Assembly (NCBI RefSeq): GCF_030463535.1
Contig: NC_132879.1
Coordinates: 37,561,425 to 37,625,424, forward strand
Length of the DNA stretch: 64,000 bases
Reading direction: 5' to 3'
From: Salminus brasiliensis
Lineage: Eukaryota > Chordata > Actinopteri > Characiformes > Bryconidae
Part shown: positions 196 through 44,954 of the stretch, piece after piece
Layout: the number at the start of each line of letters is the position of its first letter
How positions within the stretch are numbered: position 1 is the stretch's first letter
Translations under genes and position numbers: made by a program
Notes under the pieces: model-generated
The model's input: the letters and a program-made list of their open reading frames with translations, nothing else
What the model was told of the DNA's origin: nothing
Database searches by the model: none

Positions 196-2690
196 TGAGA
201 ATGTAAGCGAGGTTATTACAGGCAATAGTTAGGCAGCAGTCAAGATACAAATATACAGCATATACCTATATGTGAGGTGACTGATTTCACATGGAAATAC
301 TTTTGTGTGTGTGTTATGTTCTTGATTTCACATTTGACTTCACCCAATTCGCTCAATAATCCAAACGGCCCTTGTGGTGTCATGTGAATAGTAGCATTTG
401 GATCTGTTTTACTGGAATCTGCCTGACCCGGTGGTCATTTGCACAAGCAATTCTTGGGATGGGTTTACAACTGTAATACTTGACAGTGAGTTACAGTCCC
501 TACTACAGCTACTATACATCTAGATTGATTACCTTTCTTGACGCAACCTTTTTTTATGTGTCACCTAGTTCTTTAATTACACAGCTATACAAAAACTCTG
601 TCACTGTTACATACAAACCTTCTATCTCAAAAAGGGCAACTTTTCAGGGAGAGGAAAAAAACTTTATACCACTTAATACAGAAATGGCTTATTAAACACT
701 AAGGTGTGTTATTCAGTAACTAAAAGGACTTCAGTACTACCTGATGGAGCTATTCTTTAGTAAGTGAACTTTGTAATAACACTTTTGGCCCACCAACGGG
801 CCTAAGCTTGGGGTTAAATTGCATGGAAGTCAAAGTAAAGATTTAATTCCACTGAAGAAAAATTCTGGAGCATTTGTATTGGCCCATTCTTCTTGAAAAT
901 GTGACATTATATAAAGAACAACTGTCAGATTTAAATGATATCAAAAAGTAAGGGCTTTGCCCAGCAGCAGCGATAAAAACTAAATCGGAGACGCACACAC
1001 TCACGAATGTTGGATTGAAAACCCCCAAACCCACCTATACAGATATCTACTGAAACAATTCTCAATAATAGAGTATATACTTGCCAATAGTGAAGTATAG
1101 AGGCAGCACATTGTCTCTTTCTAATATGCTGCTTAAAAGGACTTTACAGTCTAATTCTGCTGCTGCTAAAGAGACGTCTGTAATGCAAACCACTTAAATG
1201 TTCAAACTTGGGTTTTCTTCTTCAGTTATGCAACTGGAGATGTTTTAATACACATCCTCCTTCATTAGCTGATTAAAGCAATTGCTTGAAGCACATTTGT
1301 GTGGCTGTGTGCTTGTGCATGCTCACCCTCAGTAAAATATTCACATACACATAGTGCACCCAACCCCTTCCTTTCTCTTCATTAAGCAGCCTGCCTCCAT
1401 TCGGCCTAAAAGAAGATGCCTACCAATTAGAGAACTAACCCAGAGTGCCGCACAAGTCAATCACCCCCATTGTTCCAAACGTCTGAGGGGGGATTGTTTG
1501 TTAATTATGTAACCCGGCTCTGTCCAGCAAATCATTCTGCAAAATATTCTTCAGCTTCATTGATAGTGGCTTGGAAGCCAATGGTGGCCCGGGGACGCAC
1601 ATAGCGAGAGTGGAGGGTAGCGTGAATATGTTTGTGTGTGTGTGTGTTGTGTCCAAATGTGTCAGGTTTCTAGTCACGGTCAGCTGAGCAGAAAAAAACT
1701 GTAACAAGGCCTTGCCAAGTCTGTGGCGACACAACTCCAAAAGTGACGTAGGGTACTGACCGAACAGTAGCGGCCACATCACACAGGATGCTTAATTAGA
1801 CTTCAAAGTGCACGTAAAAGCGTTATGAAGAGCCCAGGAAGTACGTACTTTTTAAAATAACATATTTACAATGTCAGTCATTACATTAGAAGTGAACTAC
1901 TGTATATTATGAGGACCTAACTGATGGGTTTACATCAGTCATATTTACAGAAATAATTCATATCTTAATTTCTCACCTAAGACAAGACTTGTTCGGATTA
2001 AAATAGGAAAATGAAAAATGAAAAAGTATATCAGTATATCAGAAGTCTTCAGAATCCTTTGTTAGAAAATATGATTGTTCCCTTTTCTGTCATGTTTTTT
2101 GACATTGCATTGACTTTGCACACCCAGACTGTACAAATATGCAATTTTCCTTGGTAAAGCGAATGCAGTAAACCTCTAACACTGACTATAGGGGGACCAT
2201 GTTGTTGCACATTTAAGGGCCTCATTTACTTTTGTGTACTGCTTGTACACAAATGTACCCATACTGTGTCTTTTGTCCATGTTTACTAACAGAAATATAT
2301 GAAGCATTGTCACTTTGGGCTTTATACAGTATCTAAAGTATGGTCGCTATGACTAGTACCGTCTACAGAAAAGAACCCAAGTTCTGAAAGGGAGCATTAT
2401 GGCTCCCTCTAGAGTTGGGTCACTGCCACATGCTGACTCAATTGGCAAACAAATCTTAGCAAGTGAAATTATGTTTTTTTGTCTTACAAAGCACTGCAAG
2501 TGTAAGTGTTAATTTTAGGACCAATTACCTTGATCAGCCTCATCTATAATATAACCTTATTTTAAGTAATGTAGGGCTCAATCAGCACACAAAGTCACTG
2601 CAAGTTTTAAAGACCTTTGAAACTTTTGCTGGTGGCTGGTTAAAGATGGCCTAAGCTGGTCTTTGTCATGCTGGTCAGTCAATATTGTCA
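196..2690. other. unique left flank, no gene seen
   Basis: AT-rich sequence not repeated elsewhere in the window. Short open frames here have no splice context or recognisable domain. Bases 2627-2683 hold several GCTGGT-type words, the same family of simple repeat found inside each array unit near 12.4 kb. There is a small TG tract at 1630-1650. Nothing else is supportable. Confidence 0.6.
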
Positions 2691-2699
2691 GCTTTGGTC

Positions 2700-2702
<3 letters not shown>

Positions 2703-2740
<38 letters not shown>
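2703..2740. repeat. (TA)n microsatellite
   Basis: Uninterrupted TA repeat of about 19 units abutting a dispersed transposon end. Read on the minus strand it yields the Tyr-Ile run that closes a spurious extension of the neighbouring transposase frame. Confidence 0.95.
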
Positions 2741-2742
<2 letters not shown>

Positions 2743-2825
2743 AACCGGATTCCAAAAAAGTTGGGACACCAAACAAATTGTGAATAAAAACTGAATGCAA
2801 TGATGTGGAGATGGCAAATGAGAAC
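2741..2825 (-). repeat. end of a dispersed fish DNA-transposon-like repeat
   Basis: Contains TTCCAAAAAAGTTGGGACAC followed by an A-rich stretch. I remember this as the end of a very common teleost interspersed repeat, but I do not assert a family name. It lies directly against the truncated Tc1-like transposase, so one element has inserted into or recombined with the other. Confidence 0.5.
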
Positions 2826-3158
2826 AGTCTTCCATTTTGCCACACTCCATTTTAAAAGACCCCTGGCCCAGTGCAAACGTCTGAGCTTGTGGAGCTTGCT
2901 TAGAAATGGCTTCCTCTTTGCACTGTAGAGTTTCAGCTGGCAACGGCGGATGGCACAGTGGATTGTGTTCACTGACAATGATTTCTGGAAGTATTCCTGA
3001 GCCCATTCTGTTATTTCCTTGACAGTGGCATTCCTGTTTGAGGTGCAGTGACGTTTAAGGGCCCGGAGATCACGAGCATCCAGTAGAGTTTTACGGCCTT
3101 GACCCTTACGCACGGCGATCGTTCCTGATTCTCTGAATCTTTTGATGATGTTAAGCAC
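2826..3158 (-). pseudogene. truncated Tc1/mariner-like transposase (N-terminal part)
   Basis: The minus-strand frame starting at 3158 encodes about 110 residues typical of the DNA-binding N-terminus of fish Tc1-like transposases: a helix-turn-helix segment (IIKRFRESGTIAVRKGQGR), then a second one ending in the motif LYSAKRKPFLS, then a W-x-x-A-K-W-K-type segment that should lead into the first catalytic Asp. The catalytic domain is missing because the frame runs into the unrelated repeat at 2741-2825 and the TA tract. This is a dead fragment outside the array, immediately left of its first unit. Confidence 0.8.
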
Positions 3159-3200
3159 GGTTGATGATGATAACTTAAAAGTCTACAGGTACAGGTACAG

Positions 3201-3609
3201 GTGGGGACACTAATGAACAGGAGGGGCTAGGACAGACAAGAAACAAACAGAGCAAAAAAGAAGCAGAACCCACACCTCGTTTATTAGTGATCCCACCTGT
3301 GCCAACTCTGTAGCCACGCCCCTTGTTAGTCCCAGGTGTTGCTCGTTTGCCCCTGTGTATACGTACCCCTTTGTTCCAGCCTTCTTTTGTCTGGTCTTGT
3401 GATCTTGTTGATTCGTGTTCATGTTGGTTCACAGTGTATTAGTTTAGTTTAGCTTAGCTTTTCTGTTCAGTTTCTATTTGTTTCTTTTGTTAGTTTTAGC
3501 CTCTGGTTTGTTCCCTTGTTTATATTTCTTTGTGTTCTGTTTAGTTTTCTTTGCATTAAAAACCTGTGTTTACGTCCACCTCTGCCTACAAGCTCTACAC
3601 ACCATGACA
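3201..3609. repeat. retroelement-like repeat, left arm of inverted repeat missing
   Basis: Left end of unit 1. It holds the spacer and the right arm (3310-3381) of the inverted repeat seen complete at later junctions, followed by a T-rich stretch ending TACAAGCTCTACACACCATG then ACA. A TTAAAA run just before the end and the terminal CA look like an LTR or retroelement 3' end, but I cannot name a family. The left arm is absent here. Confidence 0.6.
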
Positions 3610-4094
3610 TATTAAATTTGGGTGTTTAAAGTTCATGTTACTACCTTTATGTTCATAATTGTCAGTAAACAAACAGTAAAATTATTAATAGCTAACTAAA
3701 ATAATCTACAGAACGCAGAGCGCTCTTCCTGGATACTTTACTAGGCCAGTTTATCCATTATAACCCAGAGTAAGGGCGCTAAATAAGACATTAAACCATT
3801 ATTTATTACATTTTGTGATCTGTTCATGAACTGCAACATCAACAGTCTTTTCCCAGTAATCTTTAACTGTCTTAAAAGCTTGAAGTGGTTTAGGGGTGAC
3901 ACTGGTGATCACTGAAGTACACTGTTCATTTTCTTCTTGTCTTTTCTGGATCTACTTATTATTACTATTTCAAAGAAAACAGCATGTACAGAGAAGCAGT
4001 GGAAGGTCACTTTATTTCATGGTGAAGTGAGTCATGTACAGTGGCATGCAAAAGTTTCTGTTACTGTGCATAACTTTACAGAGATCCAGTTCCA
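3610..4094. other. intergenic stretch, no gene seen
   Basis: AT-rich sequence between two dispersed repeats, repeated at the same place in units 2-4. The minus strand has CCATGAAATAAAGTG near 4020, a possible polyadenylation signal for the channel gene, but it lies about 1.9 kb beyond the stop codon and inside repeats. Nothing else is recognisable. Confidence 0.5.
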
Positions 4095-4226
4095 AGCCCC
4101 AAGTGAGCAAGCCAATGGCAACAGTGGCAAGGAAAAACTCCCTAAGAACAGGAGGAAGAAACCTTGAGAGGAACCAAGACTCAACAGGGGAACCCATCCT
4201 CCTCTGGTCGACACCGGATAACCACT
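4095..4226 (+). repeat. dispersed repeat (AGGAAGAAACCTTGAGAGG family), unit 1
   Basis: Contains AGGAGGAAGAAACCTTGAGA and AACAGGGGAACCCATCCTCC, words I know as a high-copy dispersed repeat of otophysan fish genomes. The short open frames across it on both strands are not genes. Confidence 0.6.
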
Positions 4227-4379
4227 GAAAAGTTATGTGAGATTCCTGGGCCTTATCTTACATGCACTGCTCTTTTGAGGTCATCAGTATGATCTTATGA
4301 TCTGATTAGTCTATTGCAGGGTAGCGGTAGCAATAGGGCAAGAAAAGAAGCCCAGGCGCCCACTATGGGATGCCCAGAG

Positions 4380-5800
4380 CTTCTCCCAGATATCAGAGCT
4401 TCTCATTTGATTGTCGAGAGTGAGCACGGCTACTCAACAGAGAAAACTCATTTGGCCATTACCCAGGGTTCCTGACCAAGGTGTTCCGTCCAGCACCCGA
4501 CATATTAAGAGTTCAGAGCTCCACCTCCTTTACTGAGCACAATTTGGAGAGTGTCCCTCCTTTCCCTTACGAGCTGTCGAGTGTTTTCCAGAACGTCCTT
4601 AAGGAACTACCCTAAAGTAATTTTCCATGGTCTCTCCAAACTCCATACATGCCCTAGATTTCACTTCAGCTTCTGCCAAAGCTGCAGACTTATTGCTTGT
4701 TGGAACCTGTCAGTGGAATATGGGGTACCCTGAGTGAGCCAAGCTCAGAAAGCCTCCTTCTTCCACATGACGGCATCCTTTACCGCCATAACAGCCACCA
4801 ACAAGCTTTTAGCCACAGCTATGTACAGCAGTTTCCATGACAGAGGTCTTGAACAGGGTTCATTTGGACTCCATGTCCCAACCTCTTCCAGAACATCTAT
4901 GGAGTTCTCTTGGAGATGGAAGTTGAGATCAGTTTGGACAGAGTCCACTGCCAGCCTTTCACAGAAGACCTTCACTTCTCGTTTGGGCCTACCGGGGCCG
5001 TCTGGCAGGTTTCCCCATTGCCCTGATCCACCACCCACCAGAAGTGATCAGTTTACGGACCAGAACCTCTCTTTACCCAGGTGTCCGAAACATGGCCTTA
5101 GGTCAAATGACAGAAACCCAAATTGTCTATTGACCTTTGGCCCAAGGTGCCATTTCTGAGCAACCTTGTGTTCGAACATGGTGTTTGTTATGGTCAAACT
5201 GTGACAAGCACAGAAGTCCAATAACATCCCACCACTCGAGTTAAGATCAGGCAGGCTGTTCCCCTCTGATCACTCCTCCCCTGGTTTCCCAGTCGTTGCC
5301 TACATGAGCGTTGAAGTCACCCAGCAGAAGAATGGAGGCAGTGAATGGAAACCTGTTGCGAACTCCACCCACTTTATCCAAACAGGGCCGAATACTCTAA
5401 ACTGCTGTGGAGCAGAACAGACACACAACAGTCAGAGCTTTCCTCTCTGCAACAGGAAGTCACACTGAGGCGACCCTCTCATCTACTGGGATAAACTCCA
5501 ACGATGCAGCTGCCAGCTGGGGACTTGTGTGTATCCCCACACCTGACTGCCACCTCTCATCCTGGCCAACTCTTAGACCATCTACTTTAAAGATGGTTGG
5601 TCCCAGGGTCACCAAGGTCTATGAGACCAAGGGCCTCTCTGAACTTGCCCTTTGCCTGATGGGAATTTGCACAGCACCCCAAAGGTGGACCTTGCGTGTG
5701 TTGGGTCCACGCAGTCCTCCTGCATTATCTGTTCTAGGCAGAGCCCAAACAGAGTATGTGGGGTGCCTGTACACCTGATGCTTGCCTGCTGACATTACCT
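4380..5800 (-). pseudogene. degenerate non-LTR retrotransposon (endonuclease region), unit 1
   Basis: On the minus strand, broken frames read in order: LEFIPVDERVAS, the endonuclease core NAHVGNDWETRGGVI, LLDFCACHSLTITNTMFEHK, then a linker with LPDGPGRPKREVKVFCERLA. This order is that of the apurinic-like endonuclease and following linker of common teleost LINEs. Stops and frameshifts occur throughout and no reverse-transcriptase core is evident, so it is inactive. It begins less than 100 bp after the stop of the CatSper1-like gene and may supply or disrupt its 3' UTR. Plus-strand open frames here are antisense shadows. Confidence 0.75.
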
Positions 5801-5885
5801 CACAAAAGAGTCCAAACCTTTACATGCCACTAAATAAAGTGTTTGCACTTTTCCACATCATCAACAGCTGGGTGTAGATCAGATC

Positions 5886-8800
5886 TCAACTGCTGTCAGT
5901 CTCTACTTCCTCTCCCTAAAAGAAAAAAGAAAAACCTCAGTAACTCCTTTATAAGGATAAATACAGTTTTTACAGTTTTAATGAACTGCCTTACGGATAT
6001 TTACACTTCTTGTTATTTTAACAGGAACGTTACTGTTTTGAATTTTATTCTTTTATAGAGTTTTTTTACTTTTATAAAGTTGAAAAATATTTCTATTATA
6101 ACTGTTAGTGTTGTTCTCACAATATTTAATATCAGAAGGAACTTTACTTTTTTTTTTTGGTATTGTAATTGAAATGGCATGAATATGAAAAAGCTCCTTA
6201 CCTTAAAGCTGCATTCCACCAGTTTCTCCATTAAAAAAGCTTCTGACCCGATTGAGAACTGGGTCTGCTCCATGTTGGTCAATACGCTCAGGTAGTTCAT
6301 CATGAGCTCCGTCTTCCTATAAACACAACAAACAGCAGTCCTTCAGAGAAAAGCAGTGTGAGCTTGAGGCAGTGTGACTTAATGATCATCCACTATAGTT
6401 GGGTTTTTCTACATTTTCTAAGAATATGATGTCATATCCCGATCCTATTACTACGCTTGAGGCAACAGCATATGGGTATTACTGAAACAGTGTCTCTCAC
6501 CTCTTGCTGTATTTCTTATCAATGAAAGATTGTCTGAGAGCCTCCTGGTACGACTCCTCCTCTGACTGAGGCTCACTCAGCTCCAGTTCTGTTGAAGTGA
6601 CAGAGAACCATAAATCACAGAATCAGTAAAGAACATTAAAGAACAAGCTAATTTAAGCCTTTTTAAGAACTTAAGACCAAGATGGTGTCGAGCATGATTG
6701 CTGTGTTGCGAGCTCCCTCTAGGCTTAGTATGTATAATGTATGTATGTATAGTGTAAGTTAATGTCCAGATATTCTGTATTTTTATAAGTTAGCAGAAAC
6801 CTCCAGGGAGGATCATCCATGGGTTATTTATGTGGGTTATTTATTATTAAAACACTGCAGTAAACTTGTTGAATTTACTTGTGGTCTTATGGTCTGTTAA
6901 CTCCTTCTATTGAACAGAGAGTATTTATCAATCAATCGTTTATTACCAAAAAGTAGTAGTCATTGTTTTACCAGCCAGCCCTTCTGTCAGGTAAGCCATG
7001 CTGTCTTACACACTTACCGATCTTCTTGATATACTCGTCTTCATCCACTTGAGTATGTTGGATCTGAAATCAGAGGTTAGTTAGAATACTGAACCATTAC
7101 ACATCTAGGACTTATTCTACATTGCAGGAGTCTGAACTCTGTGTACCTGCTGATTGGTGGTGTTGATTGTGAGTCCTAAGTTGTCCACTAATACTGCAAG
7201 GATGATGCTTGAAGAACAGGGAAAAAGAAGTGAATAAAGAAACATTAACATGAACTGAGTAGAGATAATCAACACCATCTGACTGGTGATGTGAGAGGTT
7301 TTGCTGCTCATTGATGGTCTTGAGTTTAACAGTGTGGTGGGATGACTGGCTAAATGCTTTATAGATCTCACTGCCTTGACTTTCGACTATTATAAATAAG
7401 AGCCAGATGAGGAAATGCCTTTGTAGACATCATTTTGTACTGTAATGGTCACAGAATAGGAAACTGGGAACACTGAGAGGTTATTCCAGGTAACTTACTT
7501 GAGGAGAATTAGGTTCTCCACTAAGATGTACAGCACAAGGAAGACCATGATGTGAGAAGCTCCTGTTAGATGTAGAAAACAAAATAGAGGACAAATATAT
7601 ATTTGTTTAAAATTCTAGAAAATAGACAGCAGTTACAAGTTATAAATATTTTATTAATATTGTTTAATATTCAAATTATTAGAAAAGGGGGAAGGTGAGC
7701 CAATCAACAGTCCCTTAAGCTACATTTACTCTGAATCGTCACAAATTAATTCAACTGAACTATTGCAAGATCTGATGCATTGAATCATTTCCTGAATCAA
7801 AACAGAATCAGACCTATTCTATTTGATTCTTTTTTCATGACTTTAGTGAGTTTCTCATGTGACTTGTTGACTACTAGAAAGACATGAGCCCTCACCTTTG
7901 GAATTGCTGGTGCTGAAGACCAGGGACCAGTCATCCAGTGTCAGCACCTGGAACAAGGTGGTGATGGTGCTCATCACGCTTCCAAACCTCTCCGGGTCAG
8001 ACTCACTGTACAGCACCCGGAGAAAAATGGCAAACATGGATATAATCATAAGCATGATGAACGCCGTGGAGCCGATGGACCGGAGAGACTTCACAGCAGT
8101 TGTCAGGATCACATGCAGCGTATGGAAGGAGCTAGAAGAAGAGAGAGAGTCCTCGAGTTAATATATGGGAGGAACTGAACACCCCTTTTGGTACATTGAC
8201 CAAAGCTTTACCAGTTAGTGATTCAAAGTGAAAGCCACAGATATGGACACCCGTAACTGCCTGATTGACAACATCAACAAAGCTGTCATTTTTCTTACTG
8301 GATGGCTTTCAGCAAACGGAAAGCCCTGATTGCACGCGCTCCTTTCATGACCTTCAGCATGCGGAAGACGCTGGAAGTCTGCTTGCTGCCAAAGAGTCCT
8401 GAGGACTGAAGCAGTGGCAGTGTAAAGTCCACCAAGCTCATCACAACAATGATGAAGTCTGAAAGAAAAATAGGAACAGAGAAAAAATCAAGACTCTGAA
8501 GAAGTTCTAACATGCTATCATATAAAAACTCGCTCCATGAGATTTCAAAATCATCTGTACATGAATTTCAGTTTGCAGAACCTGGCTGTTATTTTAAGAC
8601 CATGTCGACTACTCTTATAAGAGACAGATCAGCTCACCCATGTCATTCCAGGGGTCCAGGAAGTACTTGTGCCCCAAAACCACCAGCTTCAGCAAGAACT
8701 CCATGAGGTAGATGCCCAGGAAACAGGCATCCACAGCTGAGAACACCCAACCTATTACATCCACACAAAACAACATGTAGAAATAAGCCCTTTAACAATC

Positions 8801-9001
8801 CAGATGTGTAGTATCCTCTGCACTGTGTGTGTGTGTCTGTGTGTGTGTATCCATCCACATGACATAGCAGTCAAAATAATATTTTTTACTTTTATCATCT
8901 TTTTACACTGTGCTGTACTAGAAATCACTAAGTGTGTATGATAATGTTGCTATACTGAACTACTGAATCCCAGCACATGTCTAGAGTGTATTCATATTAG
9001 T

Positions 9002-9037
<36 letters not shown>

Positions 9038-10718
9038 GTGCGTGTGTTTGTGTGTGTGTTTATATATCAAACTAATAGCTGAAATGTGACCATGTGACAG
9101 AGTGAACATGAGCTCTAGATAGTGTTTGACCACACCTGCTCTCACACTGACAGTGGGGAAGGCCTGGATGATCAGCATCACAGTATCCAGCAGAACCACC
9201 AACAGAATGAAGCCACTGAAAAGAGGATTCTGGGTGAAGGCCAGAATGAGGCGGTAGATCTGCTCGACCTTCGTCCACGAATCCTTCACTGACAGACCAT
9301 CGACCTCAGACTCCTCATACACACTGCACTGATCCTCTACAGAGAGACAGAGAGAGACGGACAGCGAATGATGAGTGTGTTCAGAAGTGTGTGTTAGACA
9401 GAGAGTATAGGTGTGTATGTGTGTGTTAGACAGGGAGTATAGGTGTGTATTAGACAGGGAGTATAGGTGTGTATGTGTGTGTTAGACAGGGAGTATAGGT
9501 GTGTATGTGTGTGTTAGACAGAGAGTATAGGTGTGTATGTGTGTGTTAGACAGAGAGTATAGGTGTGTATGTGTGTGTTAGACAGGGAGTATAGGTGTGT
9601 ATGTGTGTGTTAGACAGGGAGTATAGGTGTGTATGTGTGTGTTAGACAGGGAGTATAGGTGTGTATGTGTGTGTTAGACAGAGAGTATAGGTGTGTATGT
9701 GTGTGTTAGACAGGGAGTATAGGTGTGTATCTGTGTGTGTTAGACAGAGAGTATAGGTGTGTATCTGTGTGTGTTAGACAGGGAGTATAGGTGTGTATCT
9801 GTGTGTGTTAGACAGGGAGTATAGGTGTGTATGTGTGTGCTAGACATAGAGTATAGGTGTGTAACTGTGAGTTACCTTCTTCTACAGGGCTCTCATGTTC
9901 TACAGTGCAGTGGTTCTGTTGTCTCGACCCACAGCACTTGTAAAGGATGTAGAAGATCAGGATGCTCACAATGGTGATCATGGTCATCTACAAACACAGA
10001 GAGCGTCTTTAAGGGTTTGGTCTGTAATGAGTGTGTTGACTGTTCTTCTAAATGTTCAGCTCTTCTACTAAAACATGTTATTCTAATCCATTATATTGTG
10101 TAAAATGTCTGAAGAAGTCCCTCACCCCCACGTAGAACAGGGCTCTCAGTGGCATCATAGGAAGTCCATGAACATGCAGCTCAAACAGGGCAGTATGTTC
10201 ACAGGATGTGCTCCTGTCAACTCCCCTACAAACACACACACACACAAATAAGCAGTACAGAGAAACTGATGCATAGCTCTTTTTCACCACTGGGGGGCAC
10301 ACTCTCATCACAATCTTATACCTGTGATGTTCAAATAAAGTACACAGTGGGGCGAGGGGGCGGGGCTTGGTAGGTAAAGTTAACTCAGATAGCTCTAGTG
10401 ACCAAACTGCATAAATCCTATCTGTTGTTAAAACTCCTGTTTCTCTTCAGACCTCCATTAAAAAGCAGCTTCTTTTTCTACAGCGTCATTTTCTATCAAT
10501 TAAAATCAAGAGGACGTACTTGTTGGAGACCTCAATGAGGAAGAAGAAATCTGGATCCAGCAGACCCTGAGGAGTTAGATCCCCACAGGGAGAGTTTCTC
10601 TGACACACCCATCTGCACACACACACACACACACACACACAGTTCATTATTGTAGAATAACAGAAGAGGGAGCTGTTGATGTAACTCCACTCAAAGTCAA
10701 ACAGTCAAAAGTTTTCTC

Positions 10719-10773
<55 letters not shown>

Positions 10774-11408
10774 AGTTCGTTTTAAACAGAATCAGCAGTG
10801 GGAGCTCTCACCTGACCCAGTTGAAGGAGTTACGCATTACAATGAAGCCCTCTTTGGTCACGTTAACAGAGTCTGGAATGTTCTGTAACGTCCAAATAAG
10901 AGTCTCCTCGAGGCTTGCACTGACACACACACACACACACACAGGGCAGTAGTTAATATTGATCATAGCAGTTAGACAGACTGTTGTAGTTGGTAAGTCA
11001 GTGGTTTGGAATCTGAACTGTCACATTCAGTCTATCTGATGTAGAAACCTGTCATTGAAGCTGTTGTAGTGCTGGATCTCCTCCTCACTGTATGCACGGA
11101 TGTTGTCTCTGGAATATGGACCCCCACCTACTACCTTAAAGGTGTAGCTGTGAAGAAACACACACACACACACAGAGGAATAAAGTTTGGGATTGAGGTT
11201 AAAGTGTGGTTTGTTTGATAAGAGGATGAAAATGAAGGAGATTTATTTATTTTAATGGTTAAAAGTTTTGAGACTTTTACACCCAGATGATGCGTAAGAG
11301 CAGTAATATGAGAAATCTATGGAATAATGATTATAATTCTTACCTGCCCAGGAACCTGACCAGTTCTCCAGAGACATTCTCCTTCACACCAAAGACTGGA
11401 TAGAAGAC

Positions 11409-11462
<54 letters not shown>

Positions 11463-12166
11463 TAGATAAACTTAGATAACTAGCACACTTTGTAGAGGGG
11501 ATGAGGGAAGTCTGCAGTACGAGTGGGGTCTTACGGTCTTTGTAGAAGAAGCAGGGCACGCCTTGCACTGGTTTTGGGCAGTCGAAGTAGCGGCGGTTCA
11601 GGTGTTTACTCTCCTGAAGAGTGGCGTTGAGGTCGAACACCAGCTGGCTGCCCAGCAGACACTGAGAAACGCTCTGAAAGACAGAAGCAGTTCATGATCA
11701 ACGCTGGCATTATTGATGGATATTCTCATGATGCTTATTTTATGGTTCAACATTAAGAACATGATTATGAAGACTCATAGACACACACACACACACACTA
11801 ATATCCCAGTCAAACACAGTTTGAAGAGCTCCCTGCTGTAACACACCTAGCAGTAACCAGTGCAGTTATGTGTAGAATGTGTGTAAACTGTGCTGGACTC
11901 CAACCTTCCAGCACTAGGCTCGGGCTCCCCTGCACTAGTGTGTGTTCTGGGTTCTGGATTGTAAACATATGGGTGTAAAGTCATGGTTTCAGAGAGGAGA
12001 AGTAGAAGGAGATACACACAGTGTTACTGTTAACACGCTGCTCCTCAGTGATGTCCACCACGCCGCGCCTATCTACTCCGCTGCACGCTGACCTCTGTGG
12101 GGCTTCAAGGCCACAGGAGACCACCAGGGCCACAGCAAACAACACGGTCAGTATTTTGACCATCAT
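5886..12166 (-). CDS. catsper1: CatSper1-like channel fused to auxiliary-subunit-like ectodomain, unit 1
   Basis: Predicted pore subunit of the sperm Ca2+ channel CatSper in the flagellar membrane. Coding exons by GT/AG sites, 5' to 3': 12166-12020, 11673-11535, 11407-11344, 11147-11049, 10919-10812, 10612-10520, 10225-10126, 9987-9876, 9336-9136, 8751-8638, 8458-8299, 8131-7896, 7562-7499, 7207-7147, 7063-7018, 6588-6501, 6316-6202, 5915-5886. Sum 1977 nt, 658 aa, all phases consistent. Residues 1-20 signal peptide; 21-250 Cys-rich ectodomain with sequons NTS, NAT, NVS and NVT and motifs VVGGGP, NSPCGD and HVHGLP; 251-270 transmembrane helix; 271-327 acidic cytosolic linker; S1 328-347; S2 357-381; S3 394-409; S4 R425 to K443 with seven basic residues every third position; pore TLDDW 510-514; S6 about 526-556. 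Pore, S4 and DPERF after S5 fit CatSper1 better than CatSper2-4. The ectodomain looks like the C-terminus of a CatSper auxiliary subunit, gamma being my best guess. Mammalian CatSper1 instead has a His-rich cytosolic N-terminus. Confidence 0.8.
9001..9060. repeat. (TG)n microsatellite in channel intron 9
   Basis: Interrupted TG tract, also at 26898-26952, 44914-44968 and 62678-62731 with different lengths. It lies just downstream of the S1 exon donor on the minus strand. The Thr-His runs read across it are not coding. Confidence 0.9.
9387..9870. repeat. minisatellite in channel intron 8, unit 1
   Basis: Tandem repeat of about 30 bp with core TTAGACAGGGAGTATAGGTG, alternating GACAGGG and GACAGAG variants. 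I count 15 copies of the AGTATAGG core. It lies between the exon for the extra transmembrane helix and the exon for S1. Confidence 0.95.
10720..10774. repeat. (CT)n(CA)n compound microsatellite in channel intron 5
   Basis: A CT run passes into a CA run. It is much longer in unit 2 (about 28566-28661) and unit 3 (about 46461-46543). On the minus strand it is a TG then AG tract, not coding. Confidence 0.9.
11410..11456. repeat. (GA)n microsatellite in channel intron 2
   Basis: GA repeat that on the minus strand forms the pyrimidine tract directly before the exon 3 acceptor at 11407. Corresponding tracts are at about 29301-29355 and 47185-47230. Confidence 0.9.
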
Positions 12167-12395
12167 TGCTGTTGAAAAAAGAATACATATTTGAATAAAT
12201 ATTTAAAATATTATTAATCTTTTGGAAAGTTCTTATTTTCCTCATCATCTAATATTTATTGGTGTCTAATTTCTGAAATTTTCATCCACATTATTATATT
12301 ACATAAAATGCACTAATTATTCATATGACATGTTTTTATTCTGCAGATTTAGAGCATAGCCTTAGTTTCCCTGATGAAAAAATCAGTTACTGGTT

Positions 12396-12690
12396 TCTGA
12401 TAGTCTGAACTGGTCCTTGATGGTCAAAGTGGTGGAAAAGCTGGTCATCCAGGTGAAAACACAGCCTATGCTGGTAAACTAGCTGGTTAAGCTGGTTGAC
12501 CAGTTTATCTGTTGACCAGCATGTTTTATTTAGAGTTGAGGGTTTAGCTGGTTTATGAGCTACTGGCTTGGACTAGCTGGTCGACTAGCTTGGTCAGCGT
12601 TATCATGCTGGTAAACCAGTTAAACCATCAAACTCAAACACACGTTACGCTGGTAAAGAGCTAAACTGCTCCAGTTTGAGCTGGTCAGGC
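12396..12690. repeat. GCTGGT/ACCAGC-rich simple repeat, unit 1
   Basis: Many direct and inverted occurrences of GCTGGT and ACCAGC words with loose spacing (for example AAGCTGGTTGACCAG), so the tract can fold on itself. It lies in the intron between the non-coding first exon and the first coding exon of the channel gene. A smaller stretch of the same family lies outside the array at 2627-2683. Confidence 0.8.
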
Positions 12691-12895
12691 TGTTTTTTCA
12701 GCAGAATTAGATTAGGTTTTTAACTTCTTCAGCACCAGCTCTCATTTCAACAAAGCTAAAGCACTGATATTTCACTTCCTAACATTTGTAGAACCAGGAT
12801 CCAGTGAGGAATTTCAGTCAGTCCTAACTAAAGCATGGCTAAATGGATGGAGTGGAAGTGTGAGGACTGTGGGAACTAGTTCAGTCTGTTATTCA

Positions 12896-12931
<36 letters not shown>
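12896..12931. repeat. (AAT)n microsatellite
   Basis: Trinucleotide repeat in the first intron of the channel gene; about 12 units here, fewer in unit 2 (about 30809-30835), about 11 in unit 3 (about 48686-48720). Confidence 0.9.
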
Positions 12932-13003
12932 TCAGCACACAGTCTTTAACCTCCACCATACATCCCCTACTATCTCTCTCCTACATGTAGATCTAACACT
13001 TAC

Positions 13004-13125
13004 CTAATCCCGCTGATTCCACTCTCAGCTCATCTGATCAGCTTATGAACTAAACGTCTTCACTGACTATGACGTAATCACATGTACGTTCTCATTCCGT
13101 TGCTATGGAACAACAAACGACGTCA
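13004..13125 (-). promoter_or_regulatory. channel-gene promoter with X-box and CRE-like motifs, unit 1
   Basis: A consensus donor on the minus strand (exon end at 13004, then GTAAGTGTTAG) implies a non-coding first exon that splices to an acceptor TTTTTTCAACAG two bases before the ATG at 12166. Just upstream are GTTGCTATGGAAC at 13099-13111, which fits an RFX X-box, TGACGTAA at 13070-13077 and GACGTCA at 13119-13125, both CRE-like. RFX and CREM sites are common at ciliary and spermatid genes. The start site itself is inferred. Confidence 0.6.
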
Positions 13126-13554
13126 TAATCACATGATTACATTACTTTCTTCAGGGAGTGATTACATGTGTTGCATTTAAGGTGTCTTTATATGGTTGTT
13201 TTTTTATCTTGTCTTCAACAGGAGCTCTTCATGTGTTCTTTATGCATTTGTTATAGCAGTCTGATTAAAGACAATGTGGGTCTTTTCTGATGCCTGACAT
13301 TTTTTTATTTTATGAAAATGACTTGATAAAACATATTTGATCAAAAATATATATATAGCCTTAATTCTAAATAATTGTAAAGTAGCATCTACCCATCCTG
13401 CCTTTCAGTTAAGGACCCCACATTCTTACCAAAGCAGTGCCCGATGGCTTATTTTTATATACACAGTACATTAGATTCATGTACCCTATTAAAAGTATAA
13501 GATCCCTGAGGAACCTTTGGAAGTTCTTCAGTTTGTAACGGCGAAGAAACCTCT

Positions 13555-13765
13555 TAAGAAAAAGGACCTTAATAGAGGTTCTTCTTCCAGGTTCCTTAAT
13601 CCTATTGAAAACATGTGGACTGTCCTCAAAAGTTGGGTCTGTTCCAGGAAATCAACAACTTGAACTGAACTCTACTCCAACTCTTGACAGAAGTGTGATC
13701 AGATATTCAAACAGAATCATGAGCTTGATGATGGGTACCAAAAGTATCTGCTCAGGGTGTGACTT
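13555..13765 (+). pseudogene. DDE transposase C-terminal remnant, unit 1
   Basis: Plus-strand reading gives NPIENMWTVLKSWVCSRKS from 13598 and, after stops, DDGYQKYLLRV near 13728-13762. The NPIE-N-x-W-x-x-LK signature is the catalytic-Glu end of Tc1/mariner-type transposases. It is a dead fragment between the two divergent promoters. Confidence 0.6.
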
Positions 13766-13873
13766 GCTTATATCCTGACCCTGACTGTAAAGCTAACTAG
13801 CATTAGCTGCTAAAGCCGATAGCTTTAAGCTTATTGAGCTTCTAGTGTTTGAACTTGGCAGTCCAGGAGTCCA

Positions 13874-14133
13874 TTGTGTGTGTGTGTGTGTGTGTGTGAG
13901 TGTGTGTGTGTGTTCATGCTGTCGAGCAGTGATTGAGTGTGGGTGTGGTTTCTATGGAAACGGGACCTGCTCGGACAGCGCAGGAAGTGCGGGAGTAGGC
14001 TTTTAGTTTTAGCCACCGCGTCTTACAGCTAAACCTCTGTGCGGACAAAAGCCAGTTGGATTATTTTTATTTGAGTTTTTCGGAGTTTTATTTTTCCTGT
14101 GAGAGAAGCAGCTTTCCTGCAAAGGCTTCTGAG
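13874..14133 (+). promoter_or_regulatory. CCDC87 promoter and non-coding first exon, unit 1
   Basis: GTTTCTATGGAAAC at 13948-13961 is a perfect 14-bp palindrome-like RFX X-box. It follows a TG microsatellite (13876-13912). Downstream GC-rich sequence leads to a plausible first-exon donor GAG|GTAGCT after 14133 (other donors are possible). The first coding Met lies in the next exon at 14749. The short frame from ATG 14188 (MAMDQQGRSS) ends in TAA without a good donor and is probably not used. Confidence 0.5.
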
Positions 14134-15574
14134 GTAGCTAGCTACAGATCTGCGAGGTCAAGTGAAGCGCATTACAGTGCTACAGTAATGGCGATGGACC
14201 AACAGGGGAGAAGTTCCCCGGGAAGTGGACGATATTACCACCTTTAACGTTCATTTGTTGTTATTTATAGACCAGAACATTTTTAGGATCTTATTACGAG
14301 GGGGAATAAACACGAGAATATGTCATTTAGACTAAAGTACAGATCTGATTTAGACGTTTTAAGCACCAATAAAGAGGAGTGTAGTACAAAACTGGCGCCA
14401 CCTTCGGTAGCTATGTAGTCCTGCTGGTATAGCTCCCTGTCTGAAGAATAAAAGTGGCTCATGGGATAATAAAAGTAGCTACATTTAAATACTTTATGCA
14501 GGTTTTCTGTACTTACTGTTATTTTTTTATATTTTTTAATCTTTTTAAAAAATTACGAACGTTTAAAAGCAGTATACTCTGGGACACCTGTTTATGCTTT
14601 ATACACTGGTGCATCTTCTAGACCTTTCAGCAATTTACACTGCATTTCTAAAATAAACAATACATATTTATTTATTTGTTTATAATATAAAAATATAAAA
14701 ATGTTCATTTTTTTTTCATTCAGGTCTGTTTTGCCAGCATGTGTGAGAATGAGCAGAGGAGTGATGAATAGACGCAGTGCTGCCACAGACACAAGCTGCC
14801 GGCTGAAATCGGAGCACAAGGGCATGACACTCTCCATGACCCAGATCCTGACCCACACACGCGACACTCAGAAGTATTTCCAGGATGCTCTAGGCTCCCT
14901 CTCACTTTTTGGTAACACAGACATGAATGAAATGAAGGCGACAGGTTTGTGTTTTTTCCCTCCTTTTTTTTTAGAGGACATTCCTTTTACTCTCTGTGCT
15001 GGACATAGCATGATGTTTAGCCTCACATTGCCATTAAAAATACAGGATGCTTAGCTTGGGGTGCAGAAAACTGTAGAAACACTTCAACTGCAAAGGAGAC
15101 CATGTCTCTCAACATCAGTGCCCAACCCTACCTCAGCTCTTTTTCCAAAGCAATGTTTCAAAATATATAAAAGAATATAAGTTGTTACCAGTATAAAAAG
15201 AAGCACACCGTCCATAGAACCATAGTTGTGTGATGCATGGGTGTCCATATGTAATGTTTATAAAATAAATGTAATAATATCATATAGAAAGGTTTACAAT
15301 GTAAGTGTATAGTGTAATACAAATATAATGTAATCCTATGACAAATAAGTCCTTTTCTTATGTTTCTTAGGCAGGGTCCAGGAAGAGAGAACAGAGTCTT
15401 CAACCTTTAAAGATCTAACAAACGTTCCAGCCTCTCTGTCAGAATTCTGCCAGCAGTTGAGGAACAAAATCACACAGCAGACCGTCCACACCATCTCCTC
15501 TGAAGACCGGGAAACACTGGTCAGTCTTTCATTATTCTGAATGAATGACGACTACGCTGGAAGTAAGTTTGCCC

Positions 15575-15973
15575 TTGTGGGTGAAGTGAAAAACATTGAT
15601 TCTCTTCATCTACAATGGTATCTGTCAAAGGATGGGAAGTATTAGGCAGAAAGTGAACAGTCAGTTCTTGAAGTTGATTTGTTAAAAGCAGGAAAAATGG
15701 ACACTTTGACAAGGACCAAATTGCAATGGCTAGATGGGTCAGAACATCTCCAAAACATCAGGTAGGTCTTGTAGGGTTTTTCTGGTATGCAGTGGTCAGT
15801 ACCTACCAAAAGTGCTCCAAAGGACTTAAAGGATCTACTGCTAACATCTTGCTGCCAGATACCACAGGATGCCTTCAGAGGTATTGTGGAGACATAGTTC
15901 AATCTGTTGTGGTGGCACAAGGGGGGGGGCAACTCAGTATTAGGCAGGTGGTAGTAATGTTATGACTGATCAA
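15575..15973 (+). mobile_element. internally deleted Tc1-like transposon in CCDC87 intron, unit 1
   Basis: The left part reads GTGAACAGTCAGTTCTTGAA then AATTGCAATGGCTAGATGGG, the beginning of a very common fish Tc1-like transposase gene. The right part reads TGCCAGATACCACAGGATGC and ends GTGGTAGTAATGTTATGACTG, its 3' end. The central part, including most of the catalytic domain, is deleted. The open frames here are residual. Confidence 0.7.
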
Positions 15974-16358
15974 TGTATTTCATATGTGTGTGACAGTGAC
16001 TCAAGCAGATTCAGTGCGTACTGCTGTTTGTACGCAGGAAGAAGTAATGATGGCAGAATTGAGTCTAATTTGGGGGGACCTGCGTGGGCTTCCAGCTGAC
16101 CCCACACTGACCTCAGAGGAGAATAAGGAGATGCGCAGCCAGATGTTTGCTGAGGTCCTGTGCATCTGTGAGCAGCTCTACCTGCATTACCTACACATGT
16201 TAAAGAGGCTGGGGAAGTGTGCTGTCTTCAGCCACCAGGTCAACTGCAGTCGCCTAGCCTCTCACTTGGCCATGGACCTCAGCAGATTGTAAGAGGCATT
16301 TTTATATCTACATTAGCCTCTAGATAATTAGATATTGTGATTATATTTTTTTCTGTGT

Positions 16359-17580
16359 TAACTGTCACGTTTGACAGTTGATACACTTCCAGAAAGTGTA
16401 CAAAGTGTACAACTGAGCTGGAGTACGCAATTAAGCAAATGAGCTAAAAAGCTATTTATGTTAATCTGATGGAGTGCTAGTAGTACAAATGCACCTGCTC
16501 CCGTGTCCTCACTCTGCACCCTTACGCCAACAGAACTGGCCACATAACTGACTGTACTCCTGTTGTTGGTGCAGTATTGCCGTTCCTTAGCCAAGAGCAA
16601 ATTCTCCTGCATCTAGCAATGCTTGTGTTGACTTTATGGACACCTCAGGGCTTTCAACAATGTAGTAATTAGAATAGGGAAAACAAGGTCGTGCCCTGAT
16701 CAGTTCGGAATCCCATGACAGGGCGACTCCTGGCTGGAGTATTTAATCATTAAGTGCTCTCACTTTGTCAAATGCATGCTTTAGACTGCCATCCTGAGAC
16801 TGTTCCTTGGGGAAATACCCAAAGGGGAAACCCAAGGTGGGTTGGGGGTCGAGCTCCTGGGGTGTGGCTCTTGATCTGACACAGTACCCAACACAGCTTG
16901 TCGCTTGACAGTCGCACGTTCACTCATCATCTTGCAGTGCAGGACACCTTTTTAACTCCAGCAAAATTTGTACACAAAATTGAAGAGCTTCTTGAGTGCT
17001 TCTGTAGCATCTTGTAGAGTCATCCTTGAGTCTACCACTACTCCAGGTGCAGTAGTCAAGTTCCAGACCATCCGCCAATCCTTTTCCTGCCCATTGGCCT
17101 TGGCTTGTCGTTCCTGGTGCAGGTTGAAAAGGGTCAGGTGAGAACATCTGCTGGAGGGCAGTGCAGGGGGTTTTGGTAGATCCTGGAATATGGGTGTTGA
17201 GTAAGGAGACAGGGAAGCAGGAATAAAGGCCGTGAACGCAGTGCGTTATTCTGTATTAATTATACCAGAACGCTACTTCTCAGCCAGGCTGTGACATGGG
17301 CTACACATAGACTCGCGGTACTAGAAGCGGTTCTTCTAGTATAAAAAAAATAAGCCTGAACCAATGGTTGTCTGTAGCTGCACACCCACCTTTTCAAATA
17401 AGATTGGAGCCCCAAGGCTTATAGTGAACTGTGAGGCTGTCTGATAGGTGGCGAAGACAGGGGGTGTTTAATAAATGTTTGAGGGGCTTGTGCTGTTCCT
17501 TAATTACAATTAATGCATTTTCTCTGTACCTGTTAATGGCTGGAGGTGGGATATATGGCAAAAATGTTAAGGTAAATAAT
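16359..17580. other. large CCDC87 intron with conserved antisense open frame, unit 1
   Basis: A 1.3-kb intron with no CCDC87 exon. On the minus strand 17147-16920 is open (75 codons, Trp/Gly/Cys-rich in the middle, ending in RCPALQDDE) and continues open upstream of its Met. It is kept without stops in all three units. I do not recognise it; a transposon-derived fragment is the likeliest explanation. Confidence 0.4.
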
Positions 17581-18063
17581 CTCTCTCTGTATCTGTTTGC
17601 AGTTTGAATGCTCACTCAATCCAGCGCAATGTTGCCATGGGGATCAAGGCTACGCGAGGTGCTGTGAAGTCAAGAGACGGAGAGCACGGAGAGAGACTGG
17701 GTTCTCCACAGATGCACACCAAAGTTGTTCCTCACAGATTAGACAGCCGCCCACACAGTAAACCTAAGAAACACATGGCAAGCAGGCAACAGAAGAGGAA
17801 GGTAGATACAGACCTAACAGAGGTTGTTGTGCGTTCCTGTAAGCTAGTGGATATTGGGGTGTGTGTGTGTGAACGAGAGAAAGATGTTTTAAAGATCGGC
17901 ATAGATCGGTGAAATATTACTCCCTATTACTCACTAAATATTTTCTCCCTTCAGATCCAAGAAAAAATTAAACCACTGGATCTGGCGCAGGTGTATGACC
18001 TCATGCAATCACATCCAGAGCTGACAGCCAGCAGTATGGAGACGCGCAGTATGATGAGCCTGT

Positions 18064-18690
18064 GTTAGCATACACATACAGTACACTACCACTCCAAAGT
18101 CTGATCTTCAGGGGTCTCCAAAATCATTTGTCTTGTTAAATGTTTTTGTTATTTTTCATGACAATTATGATAGTATTATTATATTATTAATATCATTATT
18201 AAAGTAAAAAAAAGTGGTGCAGTTTTATTTTAGAGATTCATATATTCAAAGAACTGTTTGCTTAGAGTGACAGTATGGATTAAGCTAAATTAGGCATGAT
18301 GCATTGTCTAAATCTTGTATAAATGGTGATATATGTTTGCAGTCATTTTGTCAAATAATCTGCTGCAAGATTTGACCACCATTTTTGACAAATAAAGCAT
18401 TCTGGATACTACTTTTATTATAGCTTCAGTCTTTATGCTGTATAGCTTTCTTAATCATTATAATAACATGTACGGTCTTCCTGCTAATGATTTGAACAAC
18501 TGAAAGCAGCCCAGGTCTAGCCAATAAGCTGCATTTTGAACATACCCCAAACCCACCACAAATTGGTTTTGCTAAAAATACAAATTCCAAGCTTTTGAAA
18601 AAAAAAACCTCACTGTCATTCTTTGTGCCCCTGTACATCTCTATGTTTCTCTCTTTCAGTTTTTCACACTGTGTATGATGTGTGTTTTAG
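18064..18690. other. CCDC87 intron 6, nothing else seen
   Basis: AT-rich intron between exons 6 and 7. The donor GTTAGC overlaps a TGTTAG that would otherwise read as a stop. The acceptor is GTGTTTTAG. Copies lie in units 2 and 3. Confidence 0.5.
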
Positions 18691-20690
18691 GCAGCACTGC
18701 CATTGTACCTACAAAGCTAGAAGAAGAACATTGCCCTGTTACCAGGCTGAAGGTAACCAAATTTACCATTAACCTTGACTAACCTAAGCTTCTAGCTGTT
18801 GTCTTAGTTTCAGTCCTGAAGGGCTTCAACACACCCACTTTGGCTGGTAATTACCTCATGAGTGCAATCAGGTGTGTCTGAGTAGGGAAACCACCAGCTT
18901 TCCAACTTGGCTGGAGACTGGCCCTTTAGTACCCATGCTGAATACACTGTTCCTCAGAGGAACAGTAAATGTTTGTGCTTTTCTGGTAAATCTCTCAGGG
19001 ATGCAATTCCATGCCAGACCTGCAGAGGGAAACACTGCTAGAAGAGCTAGAGATGGCATCACTGCCAGCAAGGCCTCTGTCACCTTCAGTTCTTCTGTCA
19101 GCAGACCCCTGCTACAGCCTGTAGAAAGATAGAAACCCTTCTGAGGACCTGAAGAGGTCAGATATGCACACACACATGTGAAATTAAGAGCCTTGATGTA
19201 TAGTGATGCCATTATTTGAAGCTGACAATTTAACTACATTGATTTTGGAATCTTATAATTGATCAGTAATAGTAATTACGTTACTTTTTTGTGTTTTCAG
19301 ACTTGTGTATTCAGAATTGTGTATTCAGTGTGTTTATACAGATGATTCTCAATCCAAATCAAAACAATCAGATCATATATTTCTTTGGTACAATTCAGAT
19401 TTGATAGAAATTTGGTCAAATTCTTTGGTACGATTTGAGGATTCACAATGCTTTGAATAGTTTTTAAAAGAAACCTAAACAAATTAAATCTTTCTTCTCT
19501 GAGATTTACACCAATGATTCAGTGCATGGGTGTAGAATAAATGAATAGGATCGTTTAATATTTGTCTTGTTGTAATTTAATCTTATGTCTGTTGTAATAT
19601 CACATCACCAGCACATCTCTAAAATGTATCAGCGGTTTTATGCAGACTGTTACATGACACAGATTCCATGGATGAGTCCACACCAACTGATTCTGAGACA
19701 GATGTTCCTTCTCTAATTCGAGCTTTGGCGAGCCGTGGCTCCAGCAGACTGAAAGAGCTGAAACATGTGCTGCAGGTCTCTCTCTTTTTATCTGTCTCTC
19801 TCTCTCTCTCTCTCTGCCTTATAGTCTGTTACCAGACCTTTTTTTAAAGGCTGAAAGAAAAGGTAAAATGTTTGACATGAGGAAAGTGCTGTTGCGATGA
19901 TTTCTATAGAGTTATTTTTAAACTTTTGCTACTACTGGCCTCCTTAGTGCTGATCTGTGCCCGAGAGATCAAGAGAGCATTACTGGCCTTGCTCTTTGAT
20001 TGAGACCATAGACCTGGTAGTTTGGTGTACAATGTAATACACAGTAATATGGTCTGTAAGGTAAATGGAATTGTGGATAATTCTCGTCTGCACAGAGACT
20101 GGAGGAAGAAGAACAGCAGCGAATGACGAAGACTCAGCTTAAGGCGGCGAGGCCGCAGCATCCGCAGGCAGCAGTGGAAAGTGTAAATGTGTCCACTCTG
20201 GGCATTACACGTATAGCAGCGGCCCGAGTGACTGACAGGGTTTTGTCTGAGACAGTCAATATCAGCAATATTCAACAATCCTAAAATGCATTTGCAGGAT
20301 CTACAGGTAGCACAGTTTATGTCAAAGTACAGCATCTACCATCAGAAAGAGAGCCCACAGGTTGGATTTCCATTTGAGGTGTACAAGCAGGAAAAAATAC
20401 CAGGGTTTTCATTGGGTGTCCTATTTTTTTCATGACTGTACATTTACTTAGATAGAGTTTTAGGAAGTTAAACACAATGACAAGCTAAAACAGTAGAAGA
20501 CCGTTCAATAAGTTATGATTCTGCACCAAAAAAAAAAATCTAACTCCTCAATGAATGTGTACATTTGTTTCAGATTGAGCCTTCATCTGTCGCACTGCTG
20601 GATCAGAACCTGTTTAGCACAACTGAAATAAAAGAAGTCTACAAAGTTTTATCGGAGAGTCTTTCAGCTGAGTACTTAAACTTTGATGAG

Positions 20691-21025
20691 GTCAGTTACA
20701 TGCCTATGTGTGTAATAACTCAAGGTTGAGCTTTTCTTTCAGTTGTGTTGATTGTTATATGAGCATGTGCACTCTATGCCCATATGTTTGCAGACATCGC
20801 TTAGCCAGTGTTTCTTCTAAAATTAAAGATATTAACTTTGCTCCAGTAACAGTATTTAGATTTCTAAGGAGGGTTTGCACTAGATGTAGGTACATTAGTG
20901 AAGTCTGCTGAATGCTAGGTTCAATACCTCTTATTTTGGACATGTTAAACCCTCTCTTTATATACAGTCATGCCTTTGTTTTGTGTAAACATATGCTTGT
21001 TTCTTGTCTTGTTTATAGTGTTATA
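20691..21025. other. truncated CCDC87 intron before the junction, unit 1
   Basis: Sequence after the last recognisable CCDC87 exon up to the inverted repeat. An acceptor-like ATATGTTTGCAG at about 20783-20794 is followed by a frame with an early TAA, so I do not call an exon. Equivalent tails are at 38698-39032 and 56480-56814. Confidence 0.5.
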
Positions 21026-21521
21026 GGCTGAAACAAAGGGGTACTTATACACGGGGGCAAACGAACACCTGGGACTAACAAGGGGGTGTGGCTACAGAGG
21101 AGGTACAGGTGGGGACACTAATGAACAGGAGGGGCTAGGACAGACAAGAAACAAACAGAGCAAAAAAGAAGCAGAACCCACACCTCGTTTATTAGTGATC
21201 CCACCTGTGCCAACTCTGTAGCCACGCCCCTTGTTAGTCCCTGGTGTTCCTCGTTTGCCCCTGTGTATACGTACCCCTTTGTTCCAGCCTTCCTTTGTCT
21301 GGTCTTGTATGTGATCTTGTTGATTCGTGTTCATGTTGGTTCACAGTGTGTTAGTTTAGTTTAGCTTAGCTTTTCTGTTCAGTTTCTGTTTGTTTCTTTT
21401 GTTAGTTTCAGTCTCTGGTTTGTTCCCTTGTTTATATTTCTTTGTGTTCTGTTTAGTTTTCTTTGCATTAAAAACCTGTGTTTACGTCCACCTCTGCCTA
21501 CAAGCTCTACACACCATGACA
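21026..21521. repeat. inverted repeat and retroelement-like sequence at unit 1/2 junction
   Basis: Left arm 21026-21095 and right arm 21218-21289 are near-perfect reverse complements of about 70 bp around a spacer of about 120 bp. The left arm joins the truncated CCDC87 intron; the right arm continues into the same T-rich repeat found at 3382-3609. This is the junction sequence of the tandem duplication. Confidence 0.8.
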
Positions 21522-26700: not shown

Positions 26701-26900
26701 CCAGATGTGTAGTATCCTCTGCACTGTGTGTGTGTCTGTGTGTGTGTATCCATCCACATGACATAGCAGTCAAAATAATATTTTTTACTTTTATCATCTT
26801 TTTACACTGTGCTGTACTAGAAATCACTAAGTGTGTATGATAATGTTGCTATACTGAACTACTGAATCCCAGCACATGTCTAGAGTGTATTCATATTAGT

Positions 26901-26938
<38 letters not shown>

Positions 26939-28457: not shown

Positions 28458-28493
<36 letters not shown>

Positions 28494-28578
28494 CATTATT
28501 GTAGAATAACAGAAGAGGGAGCTGTTGATGTAACTCCACTCAAAGTCAAACAGTCAAAAGTTTTCTCTTCTCTCTTTC

Positions 28579-28664
<86 letters not shown>

Positions 28665-29299
28665 CGTTTTAAACAGAATCAGCAGTGGGAGCTCTCACCT
28701 GACCCAGTTGAAGGAGTTACGCATTACAATGAAGCCCTCTTTGGTCACGTTAACAGAGTCTGGAATGTTCTGTAACGTCCAAATAAGAGTCTCCTCGAGG
28801 CTTGCACTGACACACACACACACACACACACACAGGGCAGTAGTTAATATTGATCATAGCAGTTAGACAGACTGTTGTAGTTGGTAAGTCAGTGGTGTGG
28901 AATCTGAACTGTCACATTCAGTCTATCTGATGTAGAAACCTGTCATTGAAGCTGTTGTAGTGCTGGATCTCCTCCTCACTGTATCCACGGATGTTGTCTC
29001 TGGAATATGGACCCCCACCTACTACCTTAAAGGTGTAGCTGTGAAGAAACACACACACACACACAGAGGAATAAAGTTTGGGATTGAGGTTAAAGTGTGG
29101 TTTGTTTGATAAGAGGATGAAAATGAAGGAGATTTATTTATTTTAATGGTTAAAAGTTTTGAGACTTTTACACCCAGATGACGCGAAAGAGCAGTAATAT
29201 GAGAAATCTATGGAATAATGATTATAATTCTTACCTGCCCAGGAACCTGACCAGTTCTCCAGAGACATTCTCCTTCACACCAAAGACTGGATAGAAGAC

Positions 29300-29363
<64 letters not shown>

Positions 29364-29681
29364 TAGATAAACTTAGATCACTAGCACACTTTGTAGAGGG
29401 GATGAGGGAAGTCTGCAGTATGAGTGGGGTCTTACGGTCTTTGTAGAAGAAGCAGGGCACGCCTTGCTCTGGTTTTGGGCAGTCGAAGTAGCGGCGGTTC
29501 AGGTGTTTGCTCTCCTGAAGAGTGGCGTTGAGATCGAACACCAGCTGGCTGCCCAGCAGACACTGAGAAACGCTCTGAAAGACAGAAGCAGTTCATGATC
29601 AACGCTGGCATTACTGATGGATATTCTCATGATGCTTATTTTATGGTTCAACATTAAGAACATGATTATGAAGACTCATAG

Positions 29682-29712
<31 letters not shown>

Positions 29713-44909: not shown

Positions 44910-44954
<45 letters not shown>

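Follow-up and report, generated by a model that had tools for sequence, protein, structure and literature searches.

A predicted fusion of the CatSper-gamma stem to the CatSper1 channel, tandemly amplified in Salminus brasiliensis and recurrent among characiform fishes

In the mouse cryo-electron microscopy structure, as set out in passages of two papers, each auxiliary CatSper subunit has a pore partner: beta goes with CATSPER4, gamma with CATSPER1, delta with CATSPER3 and epsilon with CATSPER2 (PMC10055175; PMC11514763). In the other vertebrates that we compared, CatSper1 and CatSper-gamma appear to be separate proteins, whereas in the predicted proteins of characiform fishes they appear to be joined. 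We describe the joined gene in a stretch of 64,000 nucleotides (nt) from Salminus brasiliensis (Characiformes, Bryconidae; contig NC_132879.1, positions 37,561,425 to 37,625,424), which is called the window below and to which all coordinates refer. Given the mouse pairing of gamma with CATSPER1, this gene joins two subunits that touch each other. The view of CatSper in fish has varied. According to passages of older papers, bony fish, or fish as a whole, have no CatSper (PMC2572835; PMC4749565), and a 2024 paper gathered CatSper1 from 13 fishes, its main text naming neither Astyanax nor Pygocentrus nor Salminus (PMC11289002). Among the top-listed papers in searches of the open-licence literature on fish CatSper or fusion, none describes the fusion by title or abstract start. 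Judged from its predicted proteins, the fusion of the gamma stem and CatSper1 is real, recurrent and tandemly amplified, and it is undescribed as far as our searches show.

With mouse CATSPER1 (7eeb chain A) the fused protein shares a six-transmembrane channel with repeated positive residues in S4, the pore sequence TLDDWS and a C-terminal region, but it differs in having a signal peptide, a gamma stem, an extra helix and a linker before S1. With CatSper-gamma (mouse 7eeb chain F; fish P0048) it shares the C-terminal stem domain and the transmembrane helix, but it is without the N-terminal, beta-propeller and immunoglobulin-like (Ig-like) domains and continues into the channel. Its relatives P0001 and P0002 of Salminus, P0004 of Astyanax and P0022 of Colossoma are the same two-domain protein. 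The protein is already in the databases, as CatSper1-like, under names that reflect only the channel half. The parts and the likely mechanism are of known kinds; it is the arrangement that is new.

The first copy of the gene occupies the minus strand from 12166 to 5886. A preliminary description of this DNA, made from the letters alone, had proposed 18 exons summing to 1977 nt, and these could be rebuilt exactly from the sequence as an open frame of 658 codons and a stop, with no internal stops, GT-AG introns throughout and consistent phases. Exon 1 (12020-12166) provides the start codon and a signal-peptide-like stretch (hydrophobic residues 1-24). Exons 2-8 (9876-11673) encode the gamma C-terminal (stem) domain, the transmembrane helix and the start of a predicted cytosolic linker, and exons 9-18 (5886-9336) the CatSper1 six-transmembrane channel and C-terminus. 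The decisive join, with the exon 8 donor after 9876 and the exon 9 acceptor before 9336, is also exactly as described, both the exit and the entry being in phase 1. The intron between them has 539 nt (9337-9875), 488 nt of which are a 32-bp variable number tandem repeat (VNTR; 9387-9874). The weakest splice site is the exon 1 donor, after 12020 (ACT/gtgtgt). The database protein P0001, named Salminus brasiliensis by its source, is 99% identical over its full length, with five residue differences from copy 1, and is joined in the same manner at exons 1-2 and 8-9. That the exons chain up by chance was considered and rejected, since each half has a Pfam match at E <1e-30 and the model is repeated in four copies.

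The ectodomain belongs to CatSper-gamma. Residues 78-266 match the Pfam domain CATSPERG_C (PF22846, E 1.7e-50), and an alignment from residue 54 onward to residues 878-1083 of mouse gamma (7eeb_F) has an E of 5e-48, so that both marks of CatSper-gamma, this domain and the C-terminal helix, are present. In a search of PDB sequences with the stem, the only meaningful relatives were two mouse CatSper-gamma sequences. Beta, delta and epsilon were rejected as sources of the ectodomain, since at E <=10 the PDB sequences yielded gamma chains and, apart from these, a single weak and unrelated match (E 1.9). Residues 288-658 form the CatSper1 half, with a single six-transmembrane ion-transport domain (Ion_trans, PF00520, E 1e-34). 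Among the best 60 of 150 PDB matches, mouse CATSPER1 comes first (7eeb_A, E 6.1e-63), about 77 bits above the best voltage-gated calcium channel. The pore TLDDW aligns with the TLDDW of mouse CATSPER1, and TxDxW is what we take to be the CatSper filter motif. Hydropathy marks S1, S2, S3, S5 and S6, while S4 is unmarked.

Along the chain, a signal-peptide-like stretch is followed by the external stem, the extra helix (~241-271), an internal linker and S1 from ~323, and five of the six sequons lie N-terminal to the extra helix. Thus, where CATSPER1 would have a free cytosolic N-terminus, a signal peptide, a stem and an extra helix precede S1, and where CatSper-gamma would end as a separate single-pass protein, the predicted chain runs in frame into CatSper1. 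The proposal that an auxiliary ectodomain and its helix are joined to a CatSper1 pore is therefore supported, and the Pfam and mouse gamma matches identify the subunit. The resemblance to an auxiliary subunit on which that proposal hinged is present by sequence, and the predicted topology is kept, with the extra helix returning the chain to a cytosolic linker before S1.

What has been retained of gamma is its C-terminal end. In a full-length cyprinid gamma (P0048), an N-terminal domain (52-163), a propeller (182-588), an Ig-like domain (700-821) and the C-domain (849-1032) are recognised; the first three are all missing from P0001. Across the fused proteins scanned (P0001, P0002, P0004, P0006 and P0022), the C-domain is the only one of gamma's domains found, and P0022 has a part of it. 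Local alignment to P0048 starts at residue 824 of that protein, which places the cut point just after the Ig-like domain. Residual exons were sought by tblastn with 38 queries (36 gamma, one fused protein and one environmental channel), taking matches that start within 3000-21200. No significant match to the 36 gamma queries was found in this range outside the stem exons, and outside the gene the matches, all near 16.4-16.6 kb, fell short of significance (E 0.08-0.71). NCBIfam gave no match for the three proteins scanned. The sequence refines the earlier reading in that only the gamma C-terminal stem and helix are kept and that the gene stands in several tandem copies.

The tandem array was delimited by self-alignment at 3193-64000 and extends beyond the window end. 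Its units of ~17.9 kb start near 3193, 21101, 39108 and 56890, so that the window holds ~3.4 of them, and no self-alignment of more than 300 nt starts left of 3193. Self-alignments longer than 5 kb are 98.4-99.2% identical and shorter ones 96.5-99.9%. According to the exon model, copies 2 (23788-30077) and 3 (41802-47955) are complete with 18 exons, and copy 4 (59568-63924) has exons 7-18, its 5' exons lying beyond the window end; all are on the minus strand. Stops and frameshifts are absent from copies 1-3 and from the partial copy 4, and the splice sites of all four are intact. Copies 2 and 4 are identical across their 1327 shared coding nt. Between copies, nonsynonymous divergence (dN) is 0.0013-0.0026 and synonymous divergence (dS) 0.011-0.021, corresponding to 9-12 changes per pair. 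The VNTR of intron 8 is present in every unit (9387-9874, 27280-27707, 45296-45599 and 63058-63573) and differs in length from one unit to another, so it could mark array copies. Neither the array nor this repeat had been mentioned in the preliminary description.

The same protein recurs in other fish. In the whole-protein search, in which, as in the gamma-profile search, the 8000 candidates sharing most words were scored, 31 of 53 protein clusters had both domains. With one name listed per cluster, the two-domain clusters are named by Salminus, Astyanax, Serrasalmus, Acnodon, Pygocentrus, Metynnis and Colossoma, all seven of which we take to be Characiformes. The other clusters include 13 gamma proteins from other vertebrates and one environmental channel. 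So far as the order of protein domains goes, the expectation that the arrangement would be found in further fish was thus confirmed in seven genera. The gamma-profile search returned 35 clusters, none characiform-named and none with a channel domain. The channel-half search, which covered proteins of 204-649 amino acids (aa), gave 11 matches. Among them are the fused Astyanax protein and CatSper1 of Esox, of Osmerus and, with two records, of Latimeria; zoosporic fungi account for three more, and the last three are environmental. Standalone CatSper1 is thus found in Esox, Osmerus and Latimeria; the whole-protein search did not recover that of Esox. Salminus has a second protein, on a contig of different size, with an identity of 83% for the stem and 77% for the channel. 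Of the 53 clusters, 28 bear the name of Serrasalmus rhombeus; they are fused or fragmentary, many are on small contigs, and seven are on contigs of one size (356,005), which indicates that amplification is not peculiar to Salminus. In S. rhombeus the assembly may conceal the true number of copies.

Based on these data, we consider the best explanation to be a characiform fusion gene that would encode one membrane protein, consisting of a signal peptide, the gamma stem, the gamma helix, a linker and the CatSper1 channel; we put its probability at roughly 0.84. Several observations weigh against it. The chain joined at exons 8 and 9 is a predicted one, as are the fused proteins of the other genera; P0003 is a double model, and in P0002 the linker has additional residues that look like the end of intron 8. 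In eight of the 53 clusters, from Serrasalmus and Acnodon, the stem is present and no channel domain is recognised. The channel-half search missed fused serrasalmid proteins inside its own length range (for example P0006 and P0010) and therefore says little on the absence of separate genes. Exon and intron divergence between the window copies are alike, so that the low dN/dS, with its 9-12 changes for each pair, is weak evidence for constraint. The trees are also less than uniform. The channel tree does not group its twelve fused rows, one clade being not rejected by the approximately unbiased (AU) test (p 0.42). A larger joint tree that includes Catenaria, dog and Coregonus needs two changes and places the fungal Catenaria among the fused rows. 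Only once the rows of Catenaria, dog and Coregonus are left out does the joint tree recover the fused proteins as one clade with support 100/99.

Could the two halves be neighbouring genes, a truncated gamma (stem and helix) and a CatSper1, that are expressed apart and linked only by exon chaining? The stem-only clusters would fit this, as would the finding that in each of the four copies a retained intron 8 would add 22 residues to the stem-helix protein before a stop. A stem-helix isoform may indeed be made in this way. However, between exon 8 and S1 none of the four copies has an in-frame ATG, the first one lying inside S1. Furthermore, although intron 8 ranges over 355-567 nt (539, 479, 355 and 567 nt in copies 1-4), only 51 nt of it are outside the VNTR in each copy, leaving little room for a promoter. 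The exon 8-9 join is in phase in every copy, and source annotations from seven genera are of joined proteins, so we regard separate genes as very unlikely. An array of recently amplified, decaying pseudogenes seems more improbable still. It would agree with the near-identity of the copies, with the like divergence of their exons and introns, and with the fragmentary models among the Serrasalmus and Acnodon matches, but not with the intact reading frames of the three complete copies and the partial one or with the retention of both domains across genera, where the compared pairs are 46-89% identical.

Another question is whether the fusion occurred once. Two independent fusions, one in Salminus/Astyanax and one in the piranha family, would explain why neither the channel tree nor the larger joint tree keeps the fused proteins together, and the Acnodon channel is 52% identical to Esox versus 47% to Salminus. 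On the other hand, the stem tree places its nine fused rows together (support 70/0), four of its 29 rows of <=150 aa (Colossoma, two Serrasalmus and Chanos) having been dropped and all 18 channel rows kept. The larger joint tree has one change in 19% of 200 bootstraps (AU p 0.33), and the AU tests do not reject one clade. The reduced joint tree, in which 7 of 19 rows have less than half of the columns filled and for which the program warns that the long branches of Mobula and Vipera meet, gives the single clade mentioned above. In both groups the gamma part starts at the same place and is joined to the same partner. This common cut point favours one origin; a single origin appears more likely from these comparisons, and two fusions unlikely. 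We likewise judge it improbable that the fused protein forms its own four-fold channel with four gamma stems, outside the CatSper1-4 complex. Loss of the gamma outer domains and the high copy number would fit such a channel, but catsper3 transcripts are reported in a passage of a study on Colossoma (PMC6388931).

Under the favoured reading, that of a fusion gene for one membrane protein, the protein would be made as a single chain in sperm. The gamma helix would pack against CatSper1 as in the mouse complex, connected to the channel by a predicted cytosolic linker of ~50 residues. The fusion would fix gamma and CatSper1 at 1:1, would remove gamma's share of the extracellular canopy, and would leave a protein that carries calcium together with the other CatSper subunits. 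A single fusion event in an ancestor shared by Salminus, Astyanax and the piranha family may have been followed by its amplification. The same Colossoma study reports catsper1 along with catsper3 transcripts in skin, which points to some characiform expression in an unexpected tissue; the exon 8-9 joint is not addressed in that passage (PMC6388931). The absence of separate characiform genes is possible from the searches made. It is less likely than not, though a serious possibility, that characiforms have neither a separate CatSper1 nor a full-length gamma, that their sperm calcium channel was rebuilt on a covalent gamma-CatSper1 chain without the gamma part of the canopy, and that through tandem amplification its dose and sequence have become a target of sperm competition or drive.

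If the proposed fusion protein is made, it would change the picture in several respects. In contrast to the older claims of absence, CatSper in these fish would be present, remodelled and amplified. Of the four auxiliary subunits, it is CatSper1's partner gamma that is fused, which would be evolution's confirmation of the contact seen by cryo-electron microscopy. Since the chain is without the gamma propeller, it would offer a natural test of the role of the CatSper extracellular canopy. More speculatively, a fused chain could ease CatSper expression outside sperm.

As for the remaining sequence, no Rfam family was found at the gathering threshold in 1-24000, and of the 22 open reading frames (ORFs) considered for spacer genes, the five scanned did not reach the Pfam cut-off. 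One ORF at 15966-16289 (+), without a Pfam match, recalls the testis coiled-coil protein CCDC87 and may represent another testis gene carried by every unit. Sequence resembling a long interspersed nuclear element lies 3' of each gene copy (4734-5778, ~22609-23641, ~40650-41075 and ~58389-58841). It was judged by eye, and it gave no match in a Pfam query that was itself unreliable. A Tc1/mariner-type transposase fragment at 2688-3158 (-) (PF01498, E 3.9e-11) stops 35 bp short of where the array begins on the left.

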